NCBI RefSeq assembly: GCF_033954835.1
Contig: NZ_CP121471.1
Span: 4,892,501-4,956,500, forward strand
Reading direction: 5' to 3'
Source: Thiorhodovibrio frisius
GTDB taxonomy: Bacteria > Pseudomonadota > Gammaproteobacteria > Chromatiales > Chromatiaceae
DNA: 64,000 nt
The notes below the pieces were generated by a model, which was not told where the DNA came from, made no database searches, and saw nothing but the letters and a program-made list of their open reading frames with translations. Below, piece after piece: positions 2,088 through 46,240 of this stretch (position 1 is its first letter; each line of letters starts with the position of its first letter). The translations under genes and the position numbers were made by a program.

Positions 2088-2788
2088 TGGGAAAATGTAG
2101 CGGATTGCGCGGCTGCGGGCATCGCTGTCACGCCCCCCCCGAGGCGCAAAACCCGGGGACTAGAAGGCATCTTGAGATCAGGCTGAATCAATTCGGAAAT
2201 CGGCCGTCCTCGCACCGGGGGCGCGAAAAAGAATTCGAGCCTAATGGACCCTTTGATTCCAGACCCTTTGATTCCATCCGCGCCTCACCGCCAGCCGCCT
2301 TTATGCCATGGTGCATAAGCGCGGGTCTACCGGCGGGCCGGACTATTCCCGTCATCTCATCACTCATGTGCGCCCGAAGCCTATCTGCGCCTCAAGACTC
2401 TGCCCGGAGAGTAAGCGCAGGTCGATCTGGAGTTGTTTCATGATGTCGCAAGGCAGCATGCCGTAATTGGGTGCTGCAACCAGGAGTCGGGCTTCGCGCC
2501 GAACCTGGAGTGGCCGCAAGACAGGACTACCTCGGAAACATCGTCGAGCCGATGCCCTCTGGCACCCAGAATCGACCACGGCCTGAAGTGGCTGGTAGCC
2601 CGCCCGTGGGTCGCATTTCCCACCTGCAGGACGGTAGTATGTGAACGGTTTCACAAAACGCGATGCTCGGCTCTGCTAAAATTCACACTAATTCATCCCC
2701 TGTCGATATATATACTGAAATGCTTCAAGAGCAAAATGCTTCAAGAGCATCATGAAATTGCCAGCTAAAGAAGCTGTGCACATTAGAC
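2088..2788. other. Gene-poor stretch with two short tandem duplications
   Basis: No convincing gene in about 700 bases. It holds an exact 15-bp tandem duplication (2247-2261 and 2262-2276), an exact 16-bp tandem duplication (2718-2733 and 2734-2749), and a small palindrome at 2640-2655. A 96-codon minus-strand frame (2364-2654) has no family features and uneven composition; I do not call it. GC content drops from about 2640 on, which marks the left edge of the accessory island. Confidence 0.5.
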
Positions 2789-3634
2789 ATGAACCCAATC
2801 ATTAGCCAGATCGGACAGAACCTAATGACGTCCGCCTTAAACAAAATTCAAATTGAAACGCTTCGCGATTTATGCCACATCTACCCTGAATCCAAAAGCA
2901 CGCTTATTGGTGCTGTCGCATTAGGGTTTTATTTGGAGGTATCTTGGCGCAAAACCGCCGATATAGACCTTGTTGTTGCATTAGGCCGAAATGAAATTTT
3001 GACGACACTTTCGCAGTATTCTGATTGGACGAGGCATCCAACGCGTGAGTGTCGTTTTCAATCGCCGCAAGGCCCTTTCTTGAATATTATTCCTGCCGGA
3101 AAGGAGCATTTAGAAAAAGGAATAGTTCAGCTGGCAAATGGTCAGGCCATGAACTTGGTTGGGATTGATTTGGCATTAACTCACTCCGAGCCCCATAAGG
3201 TGGCGGATTCTCTTGAAGTCAAGGTTTCGCCTCCTTGCTGTATTGCAATTTTAAAGATGGTGTCTTTTTTGATTCGTCCCTATGAAAGACTTCGCGATTT
3301 ACAAGATATTGCCCAACTGCTTGATGTTTATATCGATGATACATCCAATCGCTTTTGGGATGTGGGCGTGGAACATATCGGGAATTTCGATTTGGTTCCA
3401 GCTTATCTTCTGGGGCAAGATATCGGTAAAATAGTAACCGAGAGACACGTCCAGACACTTCAAGATTTTTTTCAAACGCTGATCGATCCTGAATCTGTGC
3501 ATCACGCATGGATGGAGAGGCATGGGCCCTCCCATTGGAATGCTGAAAAAGAACCGCTTCTCCAAAGGTTAAAAGTGTTGCGTCAAGGTATTGAACATAG
3601 TCTTGGAACAAACATACTTGATGGGGCAACTTAA
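2789..3634 (+). CDS. AbiEii-like nucleotidyltransferase, orphan
   Basis: 281 residues. Residues 38-66 read as the core of a minimal nucleotidyltransferase: a GAVALGFYLE segment followed by TADIDLVVA with the metal-binding pair D58 and D60. The later segment ILKMVSFLIRPYERLRDLQDIAQLLD (K156, R163, D170, D173) is the helical signature that follows the catalytic domain in the AbiEii/MenA-type families. Members of this superfamily act as toxins or tRNA/protein-modifying transferases, usually with an AbiEi-type antitoxin gene upstream. None is visible here, so the partner is missing or unrecognised. Base composition is markedly more AT-rich than the core genes, which points to acquisition. The start is the first ATG; no strong Shine-Dalgarno sequence is seen. 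Confidence 0.6.
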   Translation: MNPIISQIGQNLMTSALNKIQIETLRDLCHIYPESKSTLIGAVALGFYLEVSWRKTADIDLVVALGRNEILTTLSQYSDWTRHPTRECRFQSPQGPFLNIIPAGKEHLEKGIVQLANGQAMNLVGIDLALTHSEPHKVADSLEVKVSPPCCIAILKMVSFLIRPYERLRDLQDIAQLLDVYIDDTSNRFWDVGVEHIGNFDLVPAYLLGQDIGKIVTERHVQTLQDFFQTLIDPESVHHAWMERHGPSHWNAEKEPLLQRLKVLRQGIEHSLGTNILDGAT

Positions 3635-3686
3635 ATACGGGAGAGGCAGCCCGTTCAACTCGAGATGATTACAAAACGGAGGCAAA

Positions 3687-4046
3687 ATGGGAATTCCAAA
3701 AGATATTTTAAACTCCCTCAACGGCGATGTTGAGGGGTTACAGACGGCCGCGCTCTTTAGTTCGGACGGTCTCCCACTATTGATCAACAACCCGGCCAAT
3801 GCCGATGTGGAGTCGTTTTCGGCCAAGTTTGCCATGGTATCGAAACTGGTTAGCAAGACCGTGACGTCACTCAATGGTGGTCGCACGGACGAGATCCTGG
3901 TGGAGCAGGACAAGGGCTGGATTCTCTTGCGGGCCGTTGGCAAGGCGGATTTGAATCTCATTATCAGTGTCACGCCCGATGCCACATTGGGGAATCTCAG
4001 AATGGTAGCCAAGAGACTGGTGGCGGACATAGCCGCGGCCGTTTGA
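3687..4046 (+). CDS. Roadblock/LC7 domain protein (first copy)
   Basis: 119 residues, a single roadblock/LC7 domain: an N-terminal helix (IPKDILNSL), the strand AALFSSDGLPLL, a long central helix (SFSAKFAMVSKLVSKTV), paired strands (DEILVEQDKGWILLRAV, NLIISVTPD) and a C-terminal helix. Bacterial roadblock proteins such as MglB form homodimers that regulate Ras-like GTPases (MglA) or serve as dimerisation platforms. No GTPase gene occurs in this window. A strong GGAGG lies 5-9 bases before the ATG. It is 39 bases upstream of the V4R-like gene on the same strand, so it is the first gene of the amidoligase operon proposed here. Confidence 0.85.
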   Translation: MGIPKDILNSLNGDVEGLQTAALFSSDGLPLLINNPANADVESFSAKFAMVSKLVSKTVTSLNGGRTDEILVEQDKGWILLRAVGKADLNLIISVTPDATLGNLRMVAKRLVADIAAAV

Positions 4047-4085
4047 GACGACATAATCTAAGACTATTTGAGTTGGAGGTGACCA

Positions 4086-4556
4086 ATGGCAAGTGAAGAG
4101 GAAAAGAAAAGACAATTGGTGCGCGTGCTTTCGTTGATGATCGAGGGTCTGGCGAAAGGAATCTATGATCTGTTCGACGATTCCGCCTTTGCCCTGATGA
4201 GGATAGTGGGCACCGACCTGCTGGAGATCATGCAGAAGGAGATGGGGCTCGAGATCGAAGGTGAAAACCCAACGGATGTGCTGAACGAATTACTCCGTAT
4301 CTGGGTCGATGAGATCGGATTCTTTGATGATGCCACCGTAAAAGAGATTGAGAACGGATGGATGATCGAGGGAAATCGGTGCAAGGGCTGGAATCTTACA
4401 CAGAAGATTTTGGCCACAGGGGTCAAGCAGCCGTTCACCTGCCCGGTGATGAACACCATGAACGCTGCTCTTGCCAAGATGGAGGTGCAGACGCACATGA
4501 ACATCGAACCGATTCCCGAAACCCGAGGGACACGGTTTACGCTCACCCGTATCTAG
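4086..4556 (+). CDS. V4R-like small-molecule-binding protein (tentative)
   Basis: 156 residues, soluble, preceded by TTGGAGGTG. The N-terminal 80 residues are helical. The C-terminal half contains EIENGWMIEGNRCKGW (C99) and QPFTCPVMNTMNAALAKM (C119-P120), then a strand-like end with ETRGTRFTLTRI. The placement of the cysteines and the final beta pair resemble the V4R (4-vinyl-reductase-like) domain, which binds small hydrophobic ligands or metals in two-component and roadblock-linked proteins. The similarity is by eye only and the assignment is tentative. It sits between the roadblock gene (39 bases upstream) and the amidoligase gene (about 160 bases downstream), all on the plus strand. Confidence 0.45.
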   Translation: MASEEEKKRQLVRVLSLMIEGLAKGIYDLFDDSAFALMRIVGTDLLEIMQKEMGLEIEGENPTDVLNELLRIWVDEIGFFDDATVKEIENGWMIEGNRCKGWNLTQKILATGVKQPFTCPVMNTMNAALAKMEVQTHMNIEPIPETRGTRFTLTRI

Positions 4557-4719
4557 CCCGCTTTGCCGCGGTTCTCTTACCTGGTGGACTTGAGGAGAGC
4601 GCCGTGGCAATCGGGCCGGTCACGTGAGTGGCCGCGTGCGCGGCGGATCATGAGGAGATGAGTTGCCGATACGACACGTTTGAGCATTCCGCGGATACTC
4701 GAAAATATAACGGTGAGGA

Positions 4720-6006
4720 ATGTCAGAGGAAATCTTTTTCTTCAGAAGAGAGGATACGCTCTCGCACGAGCAGGACCGATACTATCAGGATCTTTTCTAT
4801 CGCGTATTGAAGATCGGTCCAGAACTGGAATGCGGACTGCCTGGCGGGATGCAGCCCAATGTATTCCGGGCTCATCTCGAAAAGCGACTCCGACCTTCAC
4901 GGGACCTTGAGAATCTGGGAGAACTGGGCATTTTTGATGTGGTTAAGGAACACTGCGGGGTGGAAATGCAGGTCATCGGCCGGCATCCTCAATGGAACTC
5001 CCTCATGGAGCAGTACAGGCAGATCATCGATATCCTCTTGGAAGAGAAGATGCGCATGCGCCAGACCTGCGGCCTCCATTTTCATCTCATTGCCGTTGGG
5101 CTATCCGAGCGAATCCCGCAGATCATTCTGGCCAACCTTTGGAACCTCGTGCGTAAACATGCGCCCGGATTAAAGTACCTGTTTAGCGGTGGAGATGTGT
5201 CCAGTGGCATGTGCCGCCGCCGACAGCACAATGCGCATCAGGAGTTCATGGAGCACGCTCCCGTTCAAAAGGATATGCCGGAGATTCAAGCGCTCCTGAA
5301 ACAAAGCCAGAAGGTACCTGAACATCAAAACTTCTTCAATCTGGAACATGTGGAATTCGATGAAGATGGTCGCATTAAGACCTTTCACTTGGAGATGCGG
5401 TTCCCCGACGGGGATCTCGTGCCCACCTCCATTGTAGCCAAGACGTTTCTTTTTCTGGCATTGGTTTTAAAGGCGGTGGAGCTATCCAAATACGGACTGA
5501 TCCACACGGGGAGGAAGGGTTCCTGGGAACGGAAAAAGCAACTCCTGGACCTGCTGAGCAATAATGACGGGGAATTGGCACGAAGTGATACCTCCGGCAT
5601 AGGAGACGAGGAGATCCGTGAACTAAGACAAGACGCCACGGACTTGTTGCTGTTCCTCAAGTCCATTTTCAACAAATTCACCAACCCGGCCTACTCGGTA
5701 CTAAAACATCTGGCCGAGCGGCCGATTTCCGCCTATCGCATTGAGGGCCGCGACTGGAGGGATATTGAGCGAGACCTCCAAGGGCATGTTAACTATCCGG
5801 TGTTCGTGGATGATGTGGATAAGGTGATCATTAAGCATATCGAGTTGGGACTGGTACGGGGACAGTCCTCGGCAGATGACTGGCTTGGTTGCGTTTCGGC
5901 CAAATCGGGAGTGACCAAAACGGAGGTGAAGCAACGCATCAATCAGTATCTGGAAAGGTACCCGTCGTGGGATGGCGAGGAGGGGTCCTATGTGTTTGGA
6001 AGGTAG
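4720..6006 (+). CDS. Putative amidoligase (COOH-NH2 ligase, glutamine synthetase-like fold)
   Basis: 428 residues. It shows the key motifs of the amidoligase family (PF12224-type, related to GCS2): GPELE at residues 33-37 (metal/ATP-binding acidic pair), VEMQVIG at about 81-87, CGLHFH at 117-122 (the GxHxH motif) and FHLEMRFPDGD at about 222-232 (the ExR motif). Such enzymes join a carboxylate to an amine using ATP, making peptide-like metabolites or modifying proteins. The last 90 residues are a separate, charged helical region ending SGVTKTEVKQRINQYLERY, possibly a winged-helix tail. GGTGAGGA precedes the ATG. It lies directly upstream of the class II amidotransferase gene, a pairing that could supply ammonia. 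The substrate cannot be told from the sequence. Confidence 0.75.
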   Translation: MSEEIFFFRREDTLSHEQDRYYQDLFYRVLKIGPELECGLPGGMQPNVFRAHLEKRLRPSRDLENLGELGIFDVVKEHCGVEMQVIGRHPQWNSLMEQYRQIIDILLEEKMRMRQTCGLHFHLIAVGLSERIPQIILANLWNLVRKHAPGLKYLFSGGDVSSGMCRRRQHNAHQEFMEHAPVQKDMPEIQALLKQSQKVPEHQNFFNLEHVEFDEDGRIKTFHLEMRFPDGDLVPTSIVAKTFLFLALVLKAVELSKYGLIHTGRKGSWERKKQLLDLLSNNDGELARSDTSGIGDEEIRELRQDATDLLLFLKSIFNKFTNPAYSVLKHLAERPISAYRIEGRDWRDIERDLQGHVNYPVFVDDVDKVIIKHIELGLVRGQSSADDWLGCVSAKSGVTKTEVKQRINQYLERYPSWDGEEGSYVFGR

Positions 6007-6119
6007 GATGTCAGATTTGATGGGCTTGTGGTGGCTTGGTTACCACTTTGGCCTGAAGAAGTAGCGCTGGCTCAGGCTCGAGCGAGATTGATTGAAGTGT
6101 ATAGGGGTGGGGCGAAATC

Positions 6120-6926
6120 GTGTGTGGATTGATGGGGATCCAGTTGGGTCGACGATTGACATGCGCCGAGCACCAACGGGTCAAGGAACTCTTCACAGGG
6201 GTGTTGCTGGCCAACGAGGAACGGGGGCGTGAGGCCACGGGCGTGGCTGCATTCTGGCCGGACGGAAGCCACAACATTTTGAAACTGCCGGTATGTGCGA
6301 GTGAGTTCGTCGCTTCCCAGGAATTCGCGGATTTCATGAATTCATGGGACCTCTCAACCTGCACGTTACTGGGACACACACGGAAACCCACCAAGGGCTC
6401 CGTCTGGAATCCCGACAACAATCAACCGATTCGGGTTGGGCAGACGGTGGGAATCCATAACGGCACCATACAGAATGACAACTTCTTATTTGATACCCAG
6501 AACCTTGAGCGCAAGGCTGAGGTGGATAGTGAAATCATCTTCTCCATGCTAAACACCATTGAGGATATCTCTCGCATGGACTTGGAAACGATCAGCGCCA
6601 TTCAACGCGTTTCCAGAGAGCTTACCGGATATTTCACCACTCTTTCCGTGCAACTGGAAAAGCCCCATCAGGTGTTGGTAATGAAATATAACAACCCCGT
6701 TTCATTTCATTATAGCCGTTCGTTGCAGGCCTATTTTTTTTCCTCGAGATATGTGTTCCTGCGAAAGGCGTTTGGTCGGCAGGTGGTAACGGAGGCACTG
6801 GAAAGCAAGACTGGTTATCTGTTCGACGCCATGCGTCAGGAAGAGCCCGTGGGGAGACCCCACGTCCACTTTCCCTTGCAATCCACATCAGATTGTTGTT
6901 GTTGCATCGAAGCCACGGGTTTTTGA
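6120..6926 (+). CDS. Class II glutamine amidotransferase (glutaminase domain)
   Basis: 268 residues from a GTG start at 6120. That start is chosen because it leaves MCG at the N-terminus, so Cys2 becomes the Ntn nucleophile once Met is removed; GGGGTGGGG lies just upstream. Other family residues are present: GREATGV (37-43), GHTRKPTKG (85-93, the oxyanion/glutamine-binding GHTR motif), HNGTIQND (113-120) and AEVDSEI (133-139). The enzyme should hydrolyse glutamine to give ammonia, as in PurF/GlmS N-terminal domains, but no synthase domain is attached, so a partner must use the ammonia. The amidoligase directly upstream is the obvious candidate. The C-terminus carries four consecutive cysteines (CCCC) eleven residues before the end, encoded by a short TGT/TGC run; this is unusual. 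Confidence 0.85.
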   Translation: MCGLMGIQLGRRLTCAEHQRVKELFTGVLLANEERGREATGVAAFWPDGSHNILKLPVCASEFVASQEFADFMNSWDLSTCTLLGHTRKPTKGSVWNPDNNQPIRVGQTVGIHNGTIQNDNFLFDTQNLERKAEVDSEIIFSMLNTIEDISRMDLETISAIQRVSRELTGYFTTLSVQLEKPHQVLVMKYNNPVSFHYSRSLQAYFFSSRYVFLRKAFGRQVVTEALESKTGYLFDAMRQEEPVGRPHVHFPLQSTSDCCCCIEATGF

Positions 6927-6939
6927 AAAATGTGTCTTC

Positions 6940-6970
6940 AACTACCCTGATGCTTCGCTTTTGGGTAGTT
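6940..6970 (+). terminator. Hairpin after the amidotransferase gene
   Basis: A perfect 8-bp stem, AACTACCC (6940-6947) with GGGTAGTT (6963-6970), and a 15-base loop, 14 bases after the amidotransferase stop. It is followed by CTTGAATCTT rather than a clean T-run, so it is a weak terminator or a processing/attenuation hairpin inside the cluster. Confidence 0.5.
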
Positions 6971-7121
6971 CTTGAATCTTCATCCCGTAACGGAGAAATG
7001 CCTTGGCACGCCCAAGGTGCGGCTCGCTGCCGATACATTCCGGTTTGCGGATACTAGAGCGATCCGGATACTTGTCGTTCATGGAGGTTTTTAGAATCCA
7101 TCGATTAAGAAGGGGATAGAT

Positions 7122-7562
7122 ATGAGCGAAAATGAGAATAATAAAGATCGGCGTATAGATCGGTCTGCAATTCCCCTGATCGCCGTTAGAAAACAGCTGG
7201 AACGAATAGTGAAAGATGGGAATCTGAAGGCAGCTGTACTGGCCAGCAGCGACGGTTTAACTCTTGTTGCTCCAGTTAACGATGATCAGTCCGAGGCGAT
7301 TTCGGCGCTTGCGGGGTATTTAAACAAAGCAAAATCATTGATTGAGAAGAATCTGCTTAATACCGCAGCAACGGATATCACTTTCACGGGACAAGATGGT
7401 ACAACTTTTCATTGCCGATATCTTGAACTTTTTGATGAATTGGTAACTCTAGCCGTTATTACCAAAGGGGCTGCACCATCGGGGGAAATCCTGAGCCGTG
7501 CCATGAGTGGGATCATGCGTATCATGCGGAAGCACGATCAGCTTTCTACTAGGCACGGATGA
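7122..7562 (+). CDS. Roadblock/LC7 domain protein (second copy)
   Basis: 146 residues: about 20 charged residues (SENENNKDRRIDRS), then one roadblock/LC7 domain. Recognisable parts are IAVRKQLERIV, the strand AAVLASSDGLTLVAPV, the long helix SEAISALAGYLNKAKSLI, and the strand pair DITFTGQDGTTFHCRYL and LVTLAVITKG. It aligns loosely with the first copy (3687-4046) but is not a recent duplicate; its base composition is more AT-rich. AAGGGG lies 7 bases before the ATG. About 195 bases and a hairpin separate it from the amidotransferase gene, so it may have its own promoter. Two different roadblock subunits could form a heterodimer. Confidence 0.8.
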   Translation: MSENENNKDRRIDRSAIPLIAVRKQLERIVKDGNLKAAVLASSDGLTLVAPVNDDQSEAISALAGYLNKAKSLIEKNLLNTAATDITFTGQDGTTFHCRYLELFDELVTLAVITKGAAPSGEILSRAMSGIMRIMRKHDQLSTRHG

Positions 7563-7938
7563 CGATGCCGGCAGTGCCTGAATGGGGTGACGCCACTTCA
7601 GTTCATCGACCAGCTCTCGGGCTAAACTGATCCGACATCGTCAGCGCCCGCACGGCGCCGCGTCATCGCTACTATGGGGTGCTTAGGTTCCCAACTCGCC
7701 TTGGGGCGCCGCGGCGAACGGACATGGGCGGGTTCCGAGGGACGAGCCGGACGATACCCTCGCGGCCACCACGGCCAAGCCAGCGGCGAACCCTCGCTTC
7801 TCGGCACGATATCTCTGGGTCATACAGCCGTCTGGTCGCTCGCGCGACCATATTGGCTCAGACCACCCGTTTAACCAAATGCGCGCGGATCATTGCGTTT
7901 CCTGCGGTATAGGGTCTTGAAGCCGGAATACAGAGAAA
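7563..7938 (+). other. Intergenic region, nothing recognised
   Basis: 376 bases of mixed, fairly GC-rich sequence between the second roadblock gene and the pentapeptide gene. I see no gene, no clear repeat and no convincing promoter. AGAGA about 5 bases before the pentapeptide ATG may serve as its ribosome-binding site. Confidence 0.4.
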
Positions 7939-8874
7939 ATGGCCGTCACAAAAATAGAATTGGGTGTAATCCTAGAGGAACACGCGCATTGGCTCTGCAG
8001 AAAGGGCGGCAGTAGGGCTAGCCTAGACGGCGCCGACCTTCGCAACGCCAACATTCGCAACGCTGACCTTCGCAACGCTGACCTTCGTGGAGCCAACCTT
8101 GACGGCGCCAACATTCACGGAGCAAACCTTCACTGCGCCGACCTTTATGGCGGCGACCTTCGCAGCGCCAACCTTGGTGGAGCAAACCTTCACGGCGCCG
8201 ACCTTTACGGTGCCAACCTTCACGGTGCCGACCTTCACGGCGCGGATCTTCGCAGCGCGGATCTTCGCAGCGCCGACCTTCGCAGCGCCGACCTTTGCGA
8301 AGCCAACCTTGGCGGAGCCAACCTTCGCAGCGCCGACCTTCGCGGAGCCGACCTTGACGGAGCCGAACTTGACGGCGCCGATCTTTACGGCGCCGATCTT
8401 TACGGCGCCGACCTTCGCGGGGCCAACCTTTACGGCGCCGACCTCTACGGCGCCGACCTTCGGGGAGCCAACCTTCACGGCGCCGATCTTCACGGCGCCG
8501 AGCTTTACGGCGCCGACCTTCATGGCGCCAACCTTCACGGCGCTCACTTACCAGACTTTACAATTTGCCCGGAAGAAGGAGGGTTTATTGGTTGGAAATA
8601 CGCGGATGGCGCGATCCTTGAGTTATACATCCCTGAAGATGCTGTTCGCGCATGCTCGTTAGTAGGGCGGAAATGCAGGGCAACGCACGTTGTCACGCGC
8701 GCGGTCATTAGTGGGCCAAAAAAGCCGGCCTACAGGACGCGAAAAGGTACGCGATACATCGTCGGAAAAGAAACTTGGGCGGATGCTTGGAATGATGATC
8801 CGCGTATTGAATGCACGAGCGGCATTCATTTCTTTATGACTCGGAAAGAAGCCGAGGAGTATGGCGCGAGCTAG
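7939..8874 (+). CDS. Pentapeptide-repeat protein with DUF5758-like C-terminal domain
   Basis: 311 residues. After a 28-residue N-terminal segment come about 35 uninterrupted pentapeptides of the A(D/N)LxX type (about residues 29-204), enough for roughly nine turns of a right-handed beta-helix. At the DNA level this is an array of 15-bp units. The last 105 residues (from DFTICPEEGGFIGWKYADG to MTRKEAEEYG) match the DUF5758-type tail found on phage and mobile-element pentapeptide proteins. Long pentapeptide helices can mimic DNA (as in Qnr/MfpA, which protect gyrase), but the function here is not known. The Leu/Asp-rich repeat and the phage-like tail suggest acquisition. It converges on the YbaB gene, with 11 bases between the two stop codons. 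Confidence 0.9.
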   Translation: MAVTKIELGVILEEHAHWLCRKGGSRASLDGADLRNANIRNADLRNADLRGANLDGANIHGANLHCADLYGGDLRSANLGGANLHGADLYGANLHGADLHGADLRSADLRSADLRSADLCEANLGGANLRSADLRGADLDGAELDGADLYGADLYGADLRGANLYGADLYGADLRGANLHGADLHGAELYGADLHGANLHGAHLPDFTICPEEGGFIGWKYADGAILELYIPEDAVRACSLVGRKCRATHVVTRAVISGPKKPAYRTRKGTRYIVGKETWADAWNDDPRIECTSGIHFFMTRKEAEEYGAS

Positions 8875-8885
8875 CCCTTTTCCAT

Positions 8886-9203
8886 TTATCCTTCCGCGAT
8901 GTCCATGCCGCCGGTGAGCTCCTTCATGGCCTTGGCGGCAGCGTCGGCTGCCTGGGCCTGGGCGGCAGAGATGGCGGCTTTGATGAGGGTTTCGAGCAGG
9001 TCATAATCCGTGGTGGGATCGTTGCGAATCTGCTCGGCGATTTTGAGATCGACAATGCCGAGTTTGCCATTAACGGTGGCGGAGACGGCCCCGCCGCCAG
9101 CCTCGGCTGTGAAGTCGGTGGCGGCAAGTTTCTCTTTCAAGGCCGGCATCTCGGTTTGCATTCGGCCGGCGATTGTCAGAATTTTATCGAGATCTTCAAT
9201 CAT
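8886..9203 (-). CDS. YbaB/EbfC-family nucleoid-associated protein
   Basis: 105 residues from the ATG at 9203. A GTG at 9215 would add four residues, but the ATG has GGGGTG six bases upstream and matches family N-termini (MIEDLDKIL). The fold is seen in an N-terminal helix with MQTEMPALKEKLAATDFTAEAGGGAVSATVNGKLGIVDLKI, then a long C-terminal helix rich in alanine. Family members form dimers that bind DNA as tweezers. In most bacteria ybaB lies between dnaX and recR; here it stands alone next to accessory DNA, and the sequence is divergent, so it may be a second paralogue. Confidence 0.85.
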   Translation of the reverse strand: MIEDLDKILTIAGRMQTEMPALKEKLAATDFTAEAGGGAVSATVNGKLGIVDLKIAEQIRNDPTTDYDLLETLIKAAISAAQAQAADAAAKAMKELTGGMDIAEG

Positions 9204-10021
9204 AGTACACCCCACTGAGTTTAGGCGTTCGCTAGGCCGCAGGGCACGGCGGCGGATTAGTCTATGTCGTCGGCGTCCTTGTTCTCAGCGACGTCCACGG
9301 GCAGGTCGTCAAAAGCCGAGATTGATTGTATCGTTTTGCCCGTGTCGATGTGTTTGAGATCGCTCTCGAAGAGTCTCCTGACCGACTGCACAGCCCGGTC
9401 GTGGTGAGCACCTTTTTGCTCAGCCGCATCACCGGCACGGGCGGCGCGGCGGCGGGCATCGAGTTCGCTCTATGGCTCGCGGACTCGCCATCTCCTCCAA
9501 ATGGGGAGAGGCTTTGCGCCGTCGGTGCGGGTCCCCACCCTCCAGCAGGCAATAGACGGAATCATGACTAACCATCCAGCCGCCGCAGATAGCGCTCGCC
9601 GCCGAGTTGACGCATTTGCCGGCGTATCCAACGCGCGCGCTGTTGGAGTCGGTTTGATGGCGTGTCGAGCGATACAGGCGCGGGTTGGTCAGCATCGCGG
9701 CCATGAAAATTAAAGGTTCAAAATTAATGGTTCCAGGTTTGAATTCTGTTCAGGTTCGAATTCTTTTGATGATTCATGCCAAAAAGAAACCGCCAACCTC
9801 GTTAAAGGTAAAAAGCTGATAAAGCATGGACGCTCCGAGCGTGGGCGACTGTGAACCCGATGACACTATATAACACATTGCTCGTATCCGGAAAGAACCC
9901 AAATCTGGCGAAAATTGGAAGCCTATTGGTCTTGGGTTGGTCGATGGCGCCATCAGCAGTCTTGTTGCCGCTTGGGTGCGAGTACAATCCCGCGATTCCT
10001 CTCATATCTGGACGACGTCAC
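9204..10021. other. Intergenic region with a gene remnant and short repeats
   Basis: About 800 bases between ybaB and the DUF3581 gene. It holds the minus-strand coding remnant described at 9257-9469 and an AT-rich stretch at 9714-9765 in which the motif GGTTC/GGTTTG followed by AAATT/AATTC occurs three times. The frame of the DUF3581 gene is open further upstream (from 9851), but those codons do not look coding. No RNA gene is recognised. Confidence 0.4.
9257..9469 (-). pseudogene. Possible 3' remnant of an unidentified gene
   Basis: A 70-codon minus-strand frame with protein-like composition ends in TAA at 9257. It includes an Arg/Ala-rich helix (DARRRAARAGDAAEQK), RAVQSVRRLFESDLKHID and an acidic tail (VDVAENKDADDID). 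It is bounded upstream by an in-frame TAG and contains no ATG, so it cannot be translated as it stands. A neighbouring frame reads on upstream (MASPRAIERTR), as expected after a frameshift. I cannot name the ancestor. Confidence 0.3.
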
Positions 10022-43497: not shown

Positions 43498-44184
43498 TCA
43501 GCTTGGGTCGTGGGCCGCAGCGATGAGACCCTGGAACAGCCGGCGTTGACGGGAAAGATACAGCAGAAACTCCGGGTGCCACTGCACGCCAAGCACATAG
43601 CGGGCGGTCGGGTCTTCCACTGCCTGCACGATGCCGTCAAGATCGCGCCCGGCGATGCGCAGGCCCTCACCGAGCCGGTCGATGCCTTGATTGTGCAAAC
43701 TATTAATGCGGCAGCGATCGCAGCCAATACGCGCATGCAGTGCGCTATCTCGCTCGAGCAGCAGCGTCTTGAGCGGAAAAATGGTCCAGCGGTTGGAGGT
43801 GTGCTTGCGTCTGGAGCGCAGCTCTTGAAACAGGCTGCCGCCGCGACGGACGTTCAGCAGTTGGGCACCGCGACAGATGCCGAGCAGCGGGCGCCGGCGT
43901 TCGAGCATACGGTCGATGGCTGCGGCTTCGAAGCGGTCGCGCTCGGTGTCGATTTTTGGCGTGACTTCGGGCGCGGCGGCATAAAGCACCGGGTCGACAT
44001 CATGACCGCCGGTGACCACCAGCCCGGCCAAGCGCTCGAGCTTCTCAGGCGCATCGCCCGGATAGAGCTGACGCGGATGTCCGCCCGCCAGCCAGATCCC
44101 GAGTGCCACCAGTCCGCGCGGCATCAAGGCGCCGTGGCGCGGGCCGGTAATGCCGATTAGAGGGCGCGGTTCGTGCTCAGCCAT
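43498..44184 (-). CDS. Class I amidotransferase, PuuD-like peptidase C26
   Basis: 228 residues. Triad residues are visible: the nucleophile Cys in LLGICRGAQLLNV, and His/Glu in VLGVQWHPEFLL; the substrate loop LVVTGGHDVDPVLY is typical of gamma-glutamyl hydrolases such as PuuD. It should cleave a gamma-glutamyl or amide bond. It overlaps the amidoligase gene by 28 bases, so the two are translationally coupled, the recurrent amidoligase/GATase pair known from comparative genomics. It may release or trim a product made by that ligase. Confidence 0.88.
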   Translation of the reverse strand: MAEHEPRPLIGITGPRHGALMPRGLVALGIWLAGGHPRQLYPGDAPEKLERLAGLVVTGGHDVDPVLYAAAPEVTPKIDTERDRFEAAAIDRMLERRRPLLGICRGAQLLNVRRGGSLFQELRSRRKHTSNRWTIFPLKTLLLERDSALHARIGCDRCRINSLHNQGIDRLGEGLRIAGRDLDGIVQAVEDPTARYVLGVQWHPEFLLYLSRQRRLFQGLIAAAHDPS

Positions 44185-45206
44185 TGCTCCGCTACCTGCG
44201 CCCAGTCATCCTGCCCCGGGTTGAGCAGGCCACCGAGCGGTTGTTCCAGACGGTCGTGATAGGCCCGGCAAATGGCGTCGAGCCGCTTGGGCTCAGCGGC
44301 CAGGCGCTCGACCTCGACCCAGTCGTTCCAGGCATGGTGCAGGCTCCAGTCGGGCTGGTCGATTTCGCAGTTGGGCAGACGATAATGAAAGGTCGGGCGC
44401 GCCTGCACCCGGGTATCGGAGACCCGCTCTCTGACGCGGTCGTCATCGAGATGCGCGAACAGCGGTAGCATATCAAGCTCGCGGTTGCGCGTCGGGTTCG
44501 CGCTCAGATAATCCTCGATGAAGGCGGCCTGATCTGGCCAATAATCAGGCGCGATGACCTGGCGCACATAGTCTTTCGCGAAGGGCTCGGCGAAGAGCGT
44601 CAGGCGTCGTGTGATATCGATCTTGGCGCGCTTGCGCAGCCAGTCGGCCAAGCACAGAAAAGCCTTAAATGTGGCAAGCAAGGTGCGGGTGTCGAGCGCC
44701 GGCGGCTGCGGATTCAGATGCAGGCCGAAGGCATAGATGGGATTCTCGCCAGTGCCCTGAGCACCGGCCTCACGCAGCCGGACGATCAACGCCTGGAAGT
44801 CTTTCAGACGCTCAAACGGCAGCGGTGGGCTGACAATTTCTACCGGCACCACAGGCTCGGCCACCAGCTTGAGCATCTGCTCGACGCCGTCCTTGACCAG
44901 GCTCTCCAATGGGGCCTCCGCCGCTTCGCGGCCGCGCTCCCGGCGGCCAAGCTCCTTCAGCAACTCGAAGTCGAGCTCCACGCGCCAGTCGCCAGCAGAA
45001 TCGCCGCGAATGGTTGCCTCATAGTCACCGCTAGCAGAAAGCTCGCCGCCGAGATGATCGATGAGCAAAATTGCAGTCTGCTCAAGCGTCAGGCCGCCGA
45101 GCTCAATCTCGACCCCAACCAAGCGCGGCTGGCCGTCGGTCGTGTGAGTCTGCGGTGGCATGGCGAGCCTTGGGGTCGTCAAATTTTCATTGGCATCGCG
45201 GGACAT
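44157..45206 (-). CDS. Putative amidoligase (second locus)
   Basis: 349 residues. It has the amidoligase motifs in order: VGVEIEL (about 30-36, the G-x-E-x-E metal motif), WRVELDFELL (about 74-83), then YAFGLHLNPQPP (about 159-170; the second metal ligand is GLHLN, where the first family member in this window has CGLHFH) and a C-terminal helical region. The ExR motif is probably in RRLTLFAEPFAKDYV/RPTFHYRLPNCEIDQPDW. It is distant from the 4720-6006 enzyme and paired with a different amidotransferase class. The Asn in place of the second His deserves attention. ATP-dependent amide-bond formation is expected; the substrate is unknown. Confidence 0.72.
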   Translation of the reverse strand: MSRDANENLTTPRLAMPPQTHTTDGQPRLVGVEIELGGLTLEQTAILLIDHLGGELSASGDYEATIRGDSAGDWRVELDFELLKELGRRERGREAAEAPLESLVKDGVEQMLKLVAEPVVPVEIVSPPLPFERLKDFQALIVRLREAGAQGTGENPIYAFGLHLNPQPPALDTRTLLATFKAFLCLADWLRKRAKIDITRRLTLFAEPFAKDYVRQVIAPDYWPDQAAFIEDYLSANPTRNRELDMLPLFAHLDDDRVRERVSDTRVQARPTFHYRLPNCEIDQPDWSLHHAWNDWVEVERLAAEPKRLDAICRAYHDRLEQPLGGLLNPGQDDWAQVAEQWLSTNRAL

Positions 45207-45358: not shown

Positions 45359-46240
45359 TCAGTGGTCGGACGGCAGCCGCCCGGCGAAATCGCGCGCGAA
45401 CTGCCAGGCGGTTCGGCCGCTGCGCGAGCCACGGGTTAGTGCCCACTGCAGGGCTTTGCGGTTGATGACCTCAAGGTTGGCCGGCGCGGCAACCGATTGG
45501 GCATCATTGAGGCGTTCGAGCCAGTGATGCACCACGCGCAGATACTGCTCCTGACTGAAAGGATAAAAGGACAGCCAGAGACCAAAGCGATCCGACAGGG
45601 AGATTTTCTCCTCGGTGCTTTCGCCGAGATGGATCTCGCCGTCGATCAGGTGCGCCTGCTGGTTCTCCTGCTGAAACTCGGGCAGCAAATGACGGCGGTT
45701 GGAGGTGGCATAGATCAGCAGGTTGTCCGGCGGCGCGCTGATGGAGCCATCGAGTACGGCCTTGAGCGTTTTGTAGCTGGACTCGGATGCCTCGAAGGAC
45801 AAGTCGTCGCAGTAGACGATAAAGCGCTCCTCGCGCCCGTCGATGGCCTCGAGCAGATAGGGCAGGTCGATCAGGTCCGCCTTGTCGACTTCGATCAGCC
45901 GCAGGCCCTGGTCGGCATAGGTGGTAAAAATGGCTTTGATCAGCGAGGACTTGCCGGTGCCGCGCGAGCCCCACAACAGCACATTGTTTGCCGTGCGGCC
46001 GCCCAGAAACTGCCGGGTATTGCGCTCAATGACTGCGCGTTGATGCTCGATGCAAAGCAGGTCATCCAGCGCCAAGCGGTGCGGGCGGCGCACGGCCTCG
46101 AGCCGACCGTCCCGCCCGCCGCCGCGCCAGCGGAAGCTCTGGGCATCAAAGTCCGGCGTTTCCGGTGGCGCCGGTAACAGGGCCTCCACCCGCTTCATCA
46201 ATCGGGTCGCGCGCTTGAGGAATTTCTTCTTCTCGCTCAT
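45359..46240 (-). CDS. DUF815 AAA-type ATPase
   Basis: 293 residues. Walker A is GSRGTGKSS (in NNVLLWGSRGTGKSSLIKAIF), Walker B is RFIVYCDDLSF, and sensor-like LLIYATSNRRHLLPEF follows. The family motif IEHQRAVIERNTRQFLGG precedes the P-loop. DUF815 proteins are stand-alone ATPases related to DnaC/IstB-like AAA+ proteins, function unknown. The gene lies 17 bases downstream of the ettA stop on the same strand, so it is probably in the ettA transcript. Confidence 0.9.
   Translation of the reverse strand: MSEKKKFLKRATRLMKRVEALLPAPPETPDFDAQSFRWRGGGRDGRLEAVRRPHRLALDDLLCIEHQRAVIERNTRQFLGGRTANNVLLWGSRGTGKSSLIKAIFTTYADQGLRLIEVDKADLIDLPYLLEAIDGREERFIVYCDDLSFEASESSYKTLKAVLDGSISAPPDNLLIYATSNRRHLLPEFQQENQQAHLIDGEIHLGESTEEKISLSDRFGLWLSFYPFSQEQYLRVVHHWLERLNDAQSVAAPANLEVINRKALQWALTRGSRSGRTAWQFARDFAGRLPSDH

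Follow-up and report, generated by a model that had tools for sequence, protein, structure and literature searches.

A conserved, candidate undescribed gene cluster in Thiorhodovibrio frisius combines roadblock and predicted Bet3/V4R-fold proteins with a putative amide-forming enzyme pair

The stretch of Thiorhodovibrio frisius DNA analyzed here (64,000 nucleotides of a 5.4-Mb, single-contig genome; NZ_CP121471.1, positions 4,892,501 to 4,956,500, assembly GCF_033954835.1; hereafter, the window) contains a group of five plus-strand genes that may form a signal-controlled, amide-forming system. In order, these encode a roadblock protein of the Robl_LC7 family (roadblock 1; 3687-4046, 119 amino acids), a predicted Bet3/V4R-fold protein (4086-4556, 156 amino acids), a putative amidoligase resembling glutamine synthetase (GS) (4720-6006, 428 amino acids), a putative free-standing class II glutamine amidotransferase of the N-terminal nucleophile (Ntn) hydrolase type (6120-6926, 268 amino acids), and a second roadblock protein (roadblock 2; 7122-7562, 146 amino acids). 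An earlier annotation made from the sequence alone (the original prediction) had placed five open reading frames here, and all were confirmed, as were the tight spacing of the first two genes and a lower G+C content than in the core. Successive genes are separated by 39, 163, 113, and 195 bases, only the first pair being tight, and the G+C content is 0.47 to 0.53 across 3001-8000 versus 0.54 to 0.67 elsewhere in the window (1-kb steps).

The three motifs behind the original amidoligase call are all present in the ligase (GPELE at residues 33 to 37, CGLHFH at 117 to 122, and FHLEMRF at 222 to 228). Residues E35, E37, E82, H120, H122, E225, and R227 are invariant in every row with letters at the position, among 16 rows that include a distant phage-like relative. 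We take the ExE, HxH, and ExR elements to be akin to the metal and ATP ligands of GS. The ligase had no match in Pfam or NCBIfam and no sequence match in the PDB. When its AlphaFold model (predicted local distance difference test [pLDDT], 82) was searched with Foldseek, all 11 PDB matches at an E value of 0.001 or better (best, 5.5e-5; probability, 1.00) were GS, GCS2-like enzymes, Dop, or GmaS; a viral fold search with the same model returned matches named amidoligase at low TM-scores. Judged by this model, the protein appears to be a remote member of the GS-like ligase superfamily. Amidoligase_2 (PF12224) did not list it at an E value of 10 and matched 2 of 11 family members (best, 0.037). 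A classical Amidoligase_2 gene lies elsewhere in the window (44157-45206, minus strand); judged by eye, it adjoins a gene resembling a class I glutamine amidotransferase or gamma-glutamyl hydrolase (43498-44184, minus strand) and sits beside an ATPase-like gene (45359-46240, minus strand). The related locus L013 has the same kind of Amidoligase_2 next to a hydrolase-like frame.

The product of 6120-6926 scores above the PF13522 cutoff (36.2 versus 27 bits; E value, 7.2e-9), and its N terminus reads MCG, which provides the Cys2 of the Ntn glutaminase originally proposed. The glutamine-site residues Cys2, R88, N114-G115, and D136 are kept in 11 of 11 rows, and these sequence features point to a class II glutamine amidotransferase. 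GlmS-type models outscore EgtC on this protein (49.8 versus 22.2 bits). Searched with tblastn, it matched 5 plasmid and 247 phage records, all below 60% identity and generic looking, of which one plasmid and five phage records were inspected; it had no match in viral contigs.

For the protein originally called V4R-like, sequence searches gave no Pfam match above the cutoff (sole match, E value of 0.13), no NCBIfam match, and no PDB match, and the Pfam V4R and Bet3 families were absent from the six families listed for 10 members of its protein family at E values up to 10. The leading Foldseek matches of its AlphaFold model (pLDDT, 91.9) were Bet3, TPC6, and TRAPPC3 (best, 3.2e-5; TM-scores mostly about 0.5 to 0.6), and lower matches included BcsD, H-NOX, Thorarchaeal TRAPPC3, the PoxR V4R domain, and some designed proteins. 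The model sharpens the earlier call to a predicted Bet3/V4R (Bet3/TRAPPC3) fold. All 15 sequences compared keep two cysteines, C99 and C119, whose sequence positions place them between sheet and helix. This is the region in which Thor-TRAPPC3 holds zinc with four cysteines, and PoxR is similar (PMC10933270). Because only two cysteines are invariant here, versus the four that hold zinc in Thor-TRAPPC3, a metal at the C99/C119 site is only a guess.

Roadblock 1 scores above the PF03259 cutoff (30.5 versus 23 bits; E value, 3e-7), and roadblock 2 falls slightly below it (21.2 versus 23 bits; 2.5e-4). In 8 of the 13 loci from outside the genus described below, a roadblock gene lies immediately upstream of the Bet3/V4R gene; most of these encode fusions to PATAN, which we take to be DUF4388, and sometimes to REC.

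A motif-degenerate query against the GTDB species collection yielded nine confirmed relatives of the ligase at 46 to 51% identity: two from Electrothrix cable bacteria, four from records labeled Chloroflexi, Longilinea, or Anaerolinea, and three from cyanobacteria. Phylum searches with a real-sequence alignment added one relative from Chloroflexota, one from a cyanobacterium, and two from Thermodesulfobacteriota, together with the distant phage-like relative. None was found among 398 genomes of the window's own phylum except in the window itself, in plasmids or phages (tblastn), or in viral contigs. One further ligase match, in genome G190 (E value, 0.002), was dropped, as its alignment runs through stop codons. 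This leaves 13 loci outside the genus (L031 to L039 and L057 to L060), with the distant relative (L061, genome G1295) set aside. Loci were scored with profiles built from our own alignments, window members included. When the five core profiles were rebuilt without the genus, the window genes were still the best matches among 858 reading frames (the window plus 10.5 kb upstream), at 9.8e-176 for the ligase, 7.7e-53 for the Bet3/V4R protein, 1.5e-24 for roadblock 1 (other-phylum roadblocks), and 4.5e-14 for roadblock 2 (GTPase-adjacent roadblocks of other phyla); this last profile also matches roadblock 1, at 5.1e-7.

The core order is a roadblock (often fused to PATAN or REC-PATAN), the Bet3/V4R protein, the GS-like amidoligase, and the class II amidotransferase; in fuller copies, an MglA-type GTPase and further roadblocks are present as well. 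A Bet3/V4R gene lies within 0.8 kb upstream of the ligase in 11 of 13 loci (exceptions, L033 and L039), separated from it by another small frame in L038, L059, and L060; in the L039 genome (E. aarhusensis), it is on a different contig (L090). The amidotransferase lies within 0.5 kb downstream of the ligase in 10 of 13 loci, and at least one roadblock is present in 10 of 13 (none in L033, L034, and L058). All four components occur together in seven (L032, L035, L037, L038, L057, L059, and L060). Trees identify close-kin pairs (L031/L039, L032/L057, L034/L058, and L059/L060), giving about nine lineages, of which eight have the Bet3/V4R gene, seven the amidotransferase, seven a roadblock, five all four, and five an MglA-type GTPase. 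Contig ends lie near the genes in L033, L034, L035, L059, and L060, and absences there are weak. Across 17 genomes, the Bet3/V4R profile matched both ligase-bearing genus members and 12 of 13 ligase genomes from outside the genus, with no match in the ligase-free congener or the distant-relative genome, a thin control of two genomes. Since the set recurs in similar order in three other phyla and is kept by the sister species, the grouping is not due to chance, and the original view of a candidate undescribed unit, which was to be checked by co-occurrence in unrelated lineages, is upheld. In each of the four Thermodesulfobacteriota clusters (L031, L039, L059, and L060), a small cysteine-rich protein (CWE..KCGR.PGG) is also encoded close to the ligase; it was unmatched in the other stretches tabled. 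Some carriers (Electrothrix, Longilinea, Leptolyngbya, and Coleofasciculus) suggest a conceivable connection of the cluster with filamentous or gliding growth.

The original prediction had also found no MglA-like GTPase. That holds locally: a 6-sequence profile found none in the window or the adjoining 10.5 kb upstream, and a single Chloroflexota query (E value, 0.001; Rup-type GTPases not searched) found none in the window's genome (G000), G001, or the sister species, G002. It does not hold elsewhere, since 6 of the 13 loci (L032, L036, L037, L038, L057, and L060) include an MglA-type GTPase in the cluster. The gene of the roadblock 2 kind adjoins it in five of these six and is one gene apart in L060. 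With the same Chloroflexota query, the genomes of L031, L032, L036, L037, L038, and L039 yield an MglA-type protein and those of L033, L034, and L035 yield nothing; in Electrothrix, the GTPase and a roadblock are at a separate locus (L062 and L063), and L035 carries a different small GTPase-like gene (PF03029). Absence of the GTPase is thus a trait of the window copy, not of the system, and we infer that the gene was lost or replaced there. The original prediction had further held that roadblock genes found mostly with GTPases elsewhere would mark a chance grouping. This argument fails because five of the six GTPase loci (L032, L037, L038, L057, and L060) hold the GTPase, roadblock, Bet3/V4R protein, ligase, and amidotransferase together; the sixth, L036, lacks the amidotransferase. 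A second locus in HyVt-544 (L064, 6634-9105) has the GTPase, roadblocks, PATAN, and Bet3/V4R protein but, over the stretch read, neither ligase nor amidotransferase, indicating that the regulatory part can stand alone.

Of 91 other relatives searched, only a congeneric species has the ligase (97% identity); the remaining genome of the genus lacks it. The stretch common to the window and this sister species runs from 2546 to 9642 (blastn; DNA identity of 95% across 2546-7596 and 93% across 7764-9642), and in the stretches compared, the sister-species flanks match neither the window nor the 10.5 kb upstream. Nonsynonymous (dN) and synonymous (dS) divergence within the genus is 0.018 and 0.234 for the ligase (dN/dS, 0.08) and 0.006 and 0.045 for the amidotransferase (dN/dS, 0.14), and both roadblocks are without any amino acid change. 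Because these ratios are low and the roadblocks unchanged, the sequences indicate purifying selection on these genes within the genus. The dS of the ligase (0.23; window 4720-6006 versus L004 8476-9762) exceeds the values of the other four core genes (0.01 to 0.05) by factors of 5 to 24, as if one of the two species had exchanged only this gene by recombination. Trees of the ligase and of the Bet3/V4R protein each pair the genus with Electrothrix (support of 93/100 and 94/95); this concordance fits, without proving, joint transfer of the two genes, and the window copy was probably gained by transfer.

An AbiEii-type nucleotidyltransferase gene (2789-3634, plus strand; PF08843, 3.9e-6) ends 52 bases upstream of roadblock 1. 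Its profile matches only the window and L004 among 20 stretches tabled; the gene accompanies the cluster only in this genus and is probably not part of the core. Two other genes lie inside the conserved 7-kb stretch, a YbaB-like gene (8886-9215, minus strand) and one whose product is a long protein of pentapeptide repeats ending in DUF5758 (7939-8874, plus strand).

The reading that we favor, to which we assign even confidence, is that this locus is a compact copy, having lost its GTPase, of a conserved bacterial signaling-plus-enzyme cluster that encodes a signal-controlled, amide-forming pair. Roadblock dimers, together with the GTPase where present, and the Bet3/V4R protein would form a regulatory scaffold. 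Through the C99/C119 site, this scaffold might sense redox state or a ligand, and it would gate the ligase, which would activate a carboxylate with ATP and amidate it with ammonia freed from glutamine by the amidotransferase. In the window's genome, the GTPase would be gone or replaced. The case draws on sequence, gene context, and fold prediction, and the enzymatic roles are putative. More speculatively, and in our view rather doubtfully, the cluster could be a bacterial counterpart of TRAPP/Ragulator-type assemblies in which a small GTPase carries Bet3-like and roadblock proteins and which, with no vesicle tethering, switches on a protein-amidating or -glutamylating enzyme pair, that is, signal-gated posttranslational amide modification.

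Several observations weigh against a signal-controlled enzyme pair. The system is rare and patchy, found in 1 of 399 Chloroflexota, 1 of 376 Cyanobacteriota, and 2 of 384 Thermodesulfobacteriota genomes sampled (centers excluded). In 3 of 13 loci, the amidotransferase is either absent (L033 and L036) or reduced to a short remnant (L031); the ligase may thus be able to act without it. Cyanobacterial loci L034 and L058 show no roadblock, and L033 is a bare ligase near a contig end in a genome (G488) without a Bet3/V4R gene; the content of these three loci suggests that the regulatory part is not obligatory. TM-scores of the 11 PDB matches to the ligase are only 0.26 to 0.45, which makes "GS-like" a superfamily call, and profile-profile comparison with GS or PF12224 was not significant. 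For GS, with only two sequences (nine loci found, six tried, two yielding sequence), the hhalign probability was 0.5%, and hmmsearch gave an E value of 0.19 with a negative score; the PF12224 comparison was built on 14 loci yielding sequence of 15 tried. For the Bet3/V4R gene, dN/dS is only 0.27 (dN, 0.008; dS, 0.030), from six base changes, and the tree of its protein carries a long-branch warning naming this genus, while the amidotransferase tree does not resolve the link to Electrothrix.

These features leave room for other explanations. One that we hold tentatively, as a possibility well short of even, is a gamma-glutamyl writer and eraser, in which the GS-like enzyme joins glutamate via its gamma-carboxylate to a protein or metabolite amine and the Ntn protein, acting as a gamma-glutamyl hydrolase, takes it off again. 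EgtA and EgtC carry out such joining and removal in ergothioneine synthesis. Among the fold matches of the ligase are GCS2 (1tt4), the depupylase Dop, and GmaS; the EgtC model (TIGR03442) gives a weak match to the amidotransferase (7.3e-5, far below the cutoff); a reversible mark would suit a signaling cluster; and the classical amidoligase of the window likewise adjoins, by eye, a class I hydrolase-like gene. However, the GlmS-type models score higher than EgtC, retention of all checked glutamine-site residues suits a glutaminase equally, and no eraser lies beside the bare L033 ligase. A small-molecule amidation pathway, with the roadblock, Bet3/V4R, and GTPase proteins merely regulating the same operon, is unlikely: no other biosynthetic genes common to the clusters were seen by eye (no systematic search was made), even though L034 and L058 contain only the Bet3/V4R protein, ligase, and amidotransferase, as such a pathway might. 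A phage with an amidoligase and an amidotransferase has also been proposed to aid host nitrogen metabolism (PMC10945688).

The patchy distribution, the flanks that differ between the two species, the AbiEii gene upstream (PADLOC AbiEii, 0.0019), and the distant ligase relative located among other COOH-NH2 ligases in a phage-like stretch would all suit a transferable anti-phage or conflict cassette with a phage-related ligase. We nevertheless consider this quite unlikely, given that the five core proteins have no PADLOC match at an E value of 0.1, bar a weak one for the V4R-like protein (0.01), and that none of the other clusters has AbiEii, the majority of them encoding PATAN or response-regulator domains in its place. 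The phage-like stretch itself (L061, 10122-16854; genome sampled from Thermodesulfobacteriota) has two PF14395 COOH-NH2 ligases and the distant relative within 7 kb. That the genes are chance neighbors with no joint function might be read from the loose spacing beyond the first two, but it is very improbable given that both the gene set and its order are found again in four groups at about 50% identity.

Signal-controlled amide formation, our favored reading, would unite two kinds of neighborhood that are each known, GTPase-roadblock-PATAN groupings and amidoligase-amidotransferase pairs. MglA and MglB genes occur near PATAN proteins, as described in a study (Wuichet and Sogaard-Andersen, PMC4316618) whose main text does not contain the term V4R. 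The cluster resembles such modules in that 6 of 13 loci combine an MglA-type GTPase, roadblocks, and PATAN/DUF4388 (REC too in four); it differs by adding the Bet3/V4R protein, GS-like ligase, and amidotransferase and, in the window's genome, by having no MglA-type GTPase detected by the single query. Iyer et al. reportedly described in 2009 phage gene sets of an amidoligase or COOH-NH2 ligase with a class II amidotransferase. In phages QDWS535 (Alcaligenes) and LAh_9 (Aeromonas), an amidoligase gene likewise neighbors one for a class II amidotransferase, but there the amidotransferase is within a longer protein, ATP-grasp genes are nearby, and no roadblock or V4R protein is annotated in the stretch; the window ligase, for its part, has no Pfam family match and a GS-like fold by the viral fold search. 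Chromosomal Amidoligase_2 proteins such as that at 44157-45206 are also predicted amidoligases but form a separate sequence family, and the neighbor of the window copy is class I hydrolase-like. With Bet3/TRAPPC3 and the Asgard TRAPPC3/V4R proteins, as PMC10933270 and PMC2253512 present them, the similarities are the predicted fold, roadblock neighbors, and, in several loci, small-GTPase neighbors, whereas the window protein has no Pfam V4R/Bet3 match and only two invariant cysteines, is bacterial, and occurs with a ligase. According to PMC10933270, Asgard MK-D1 generally does not place its GTPase genes in the same operons as these regulators.

In the open-licence literature, judged by the titles and abstract openings listed, we found no description of the union of the two halves; Iyer et al. 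2009 may possibly mention the ligase family. The same literature has no joint mention of amidoligase and roadblock, and V4R domain, Bet3, and roadblock appear together there only in work on Asgard archaea. The cluster is therefore a real, conserved candidate system, undescribed as far as the open-licence literature goes. Small-GTPase/roadblock regulation is known from bacterial polarity and motility, and eukaryotic TRAPP is built from Bet3 and roadblock-related (longin) folds. The cluster would link this regulation to amide-bond chemistry via a Bet3-fold protein and would bring to light two protein families that lie below every Pfam cutoff and have members in four bacterial groups. Genes for Bet3-like, roadblock, and Ras-like GTPase proteins side by side in bacteria may offer a simple setting in which to look for the first role of this pairing.

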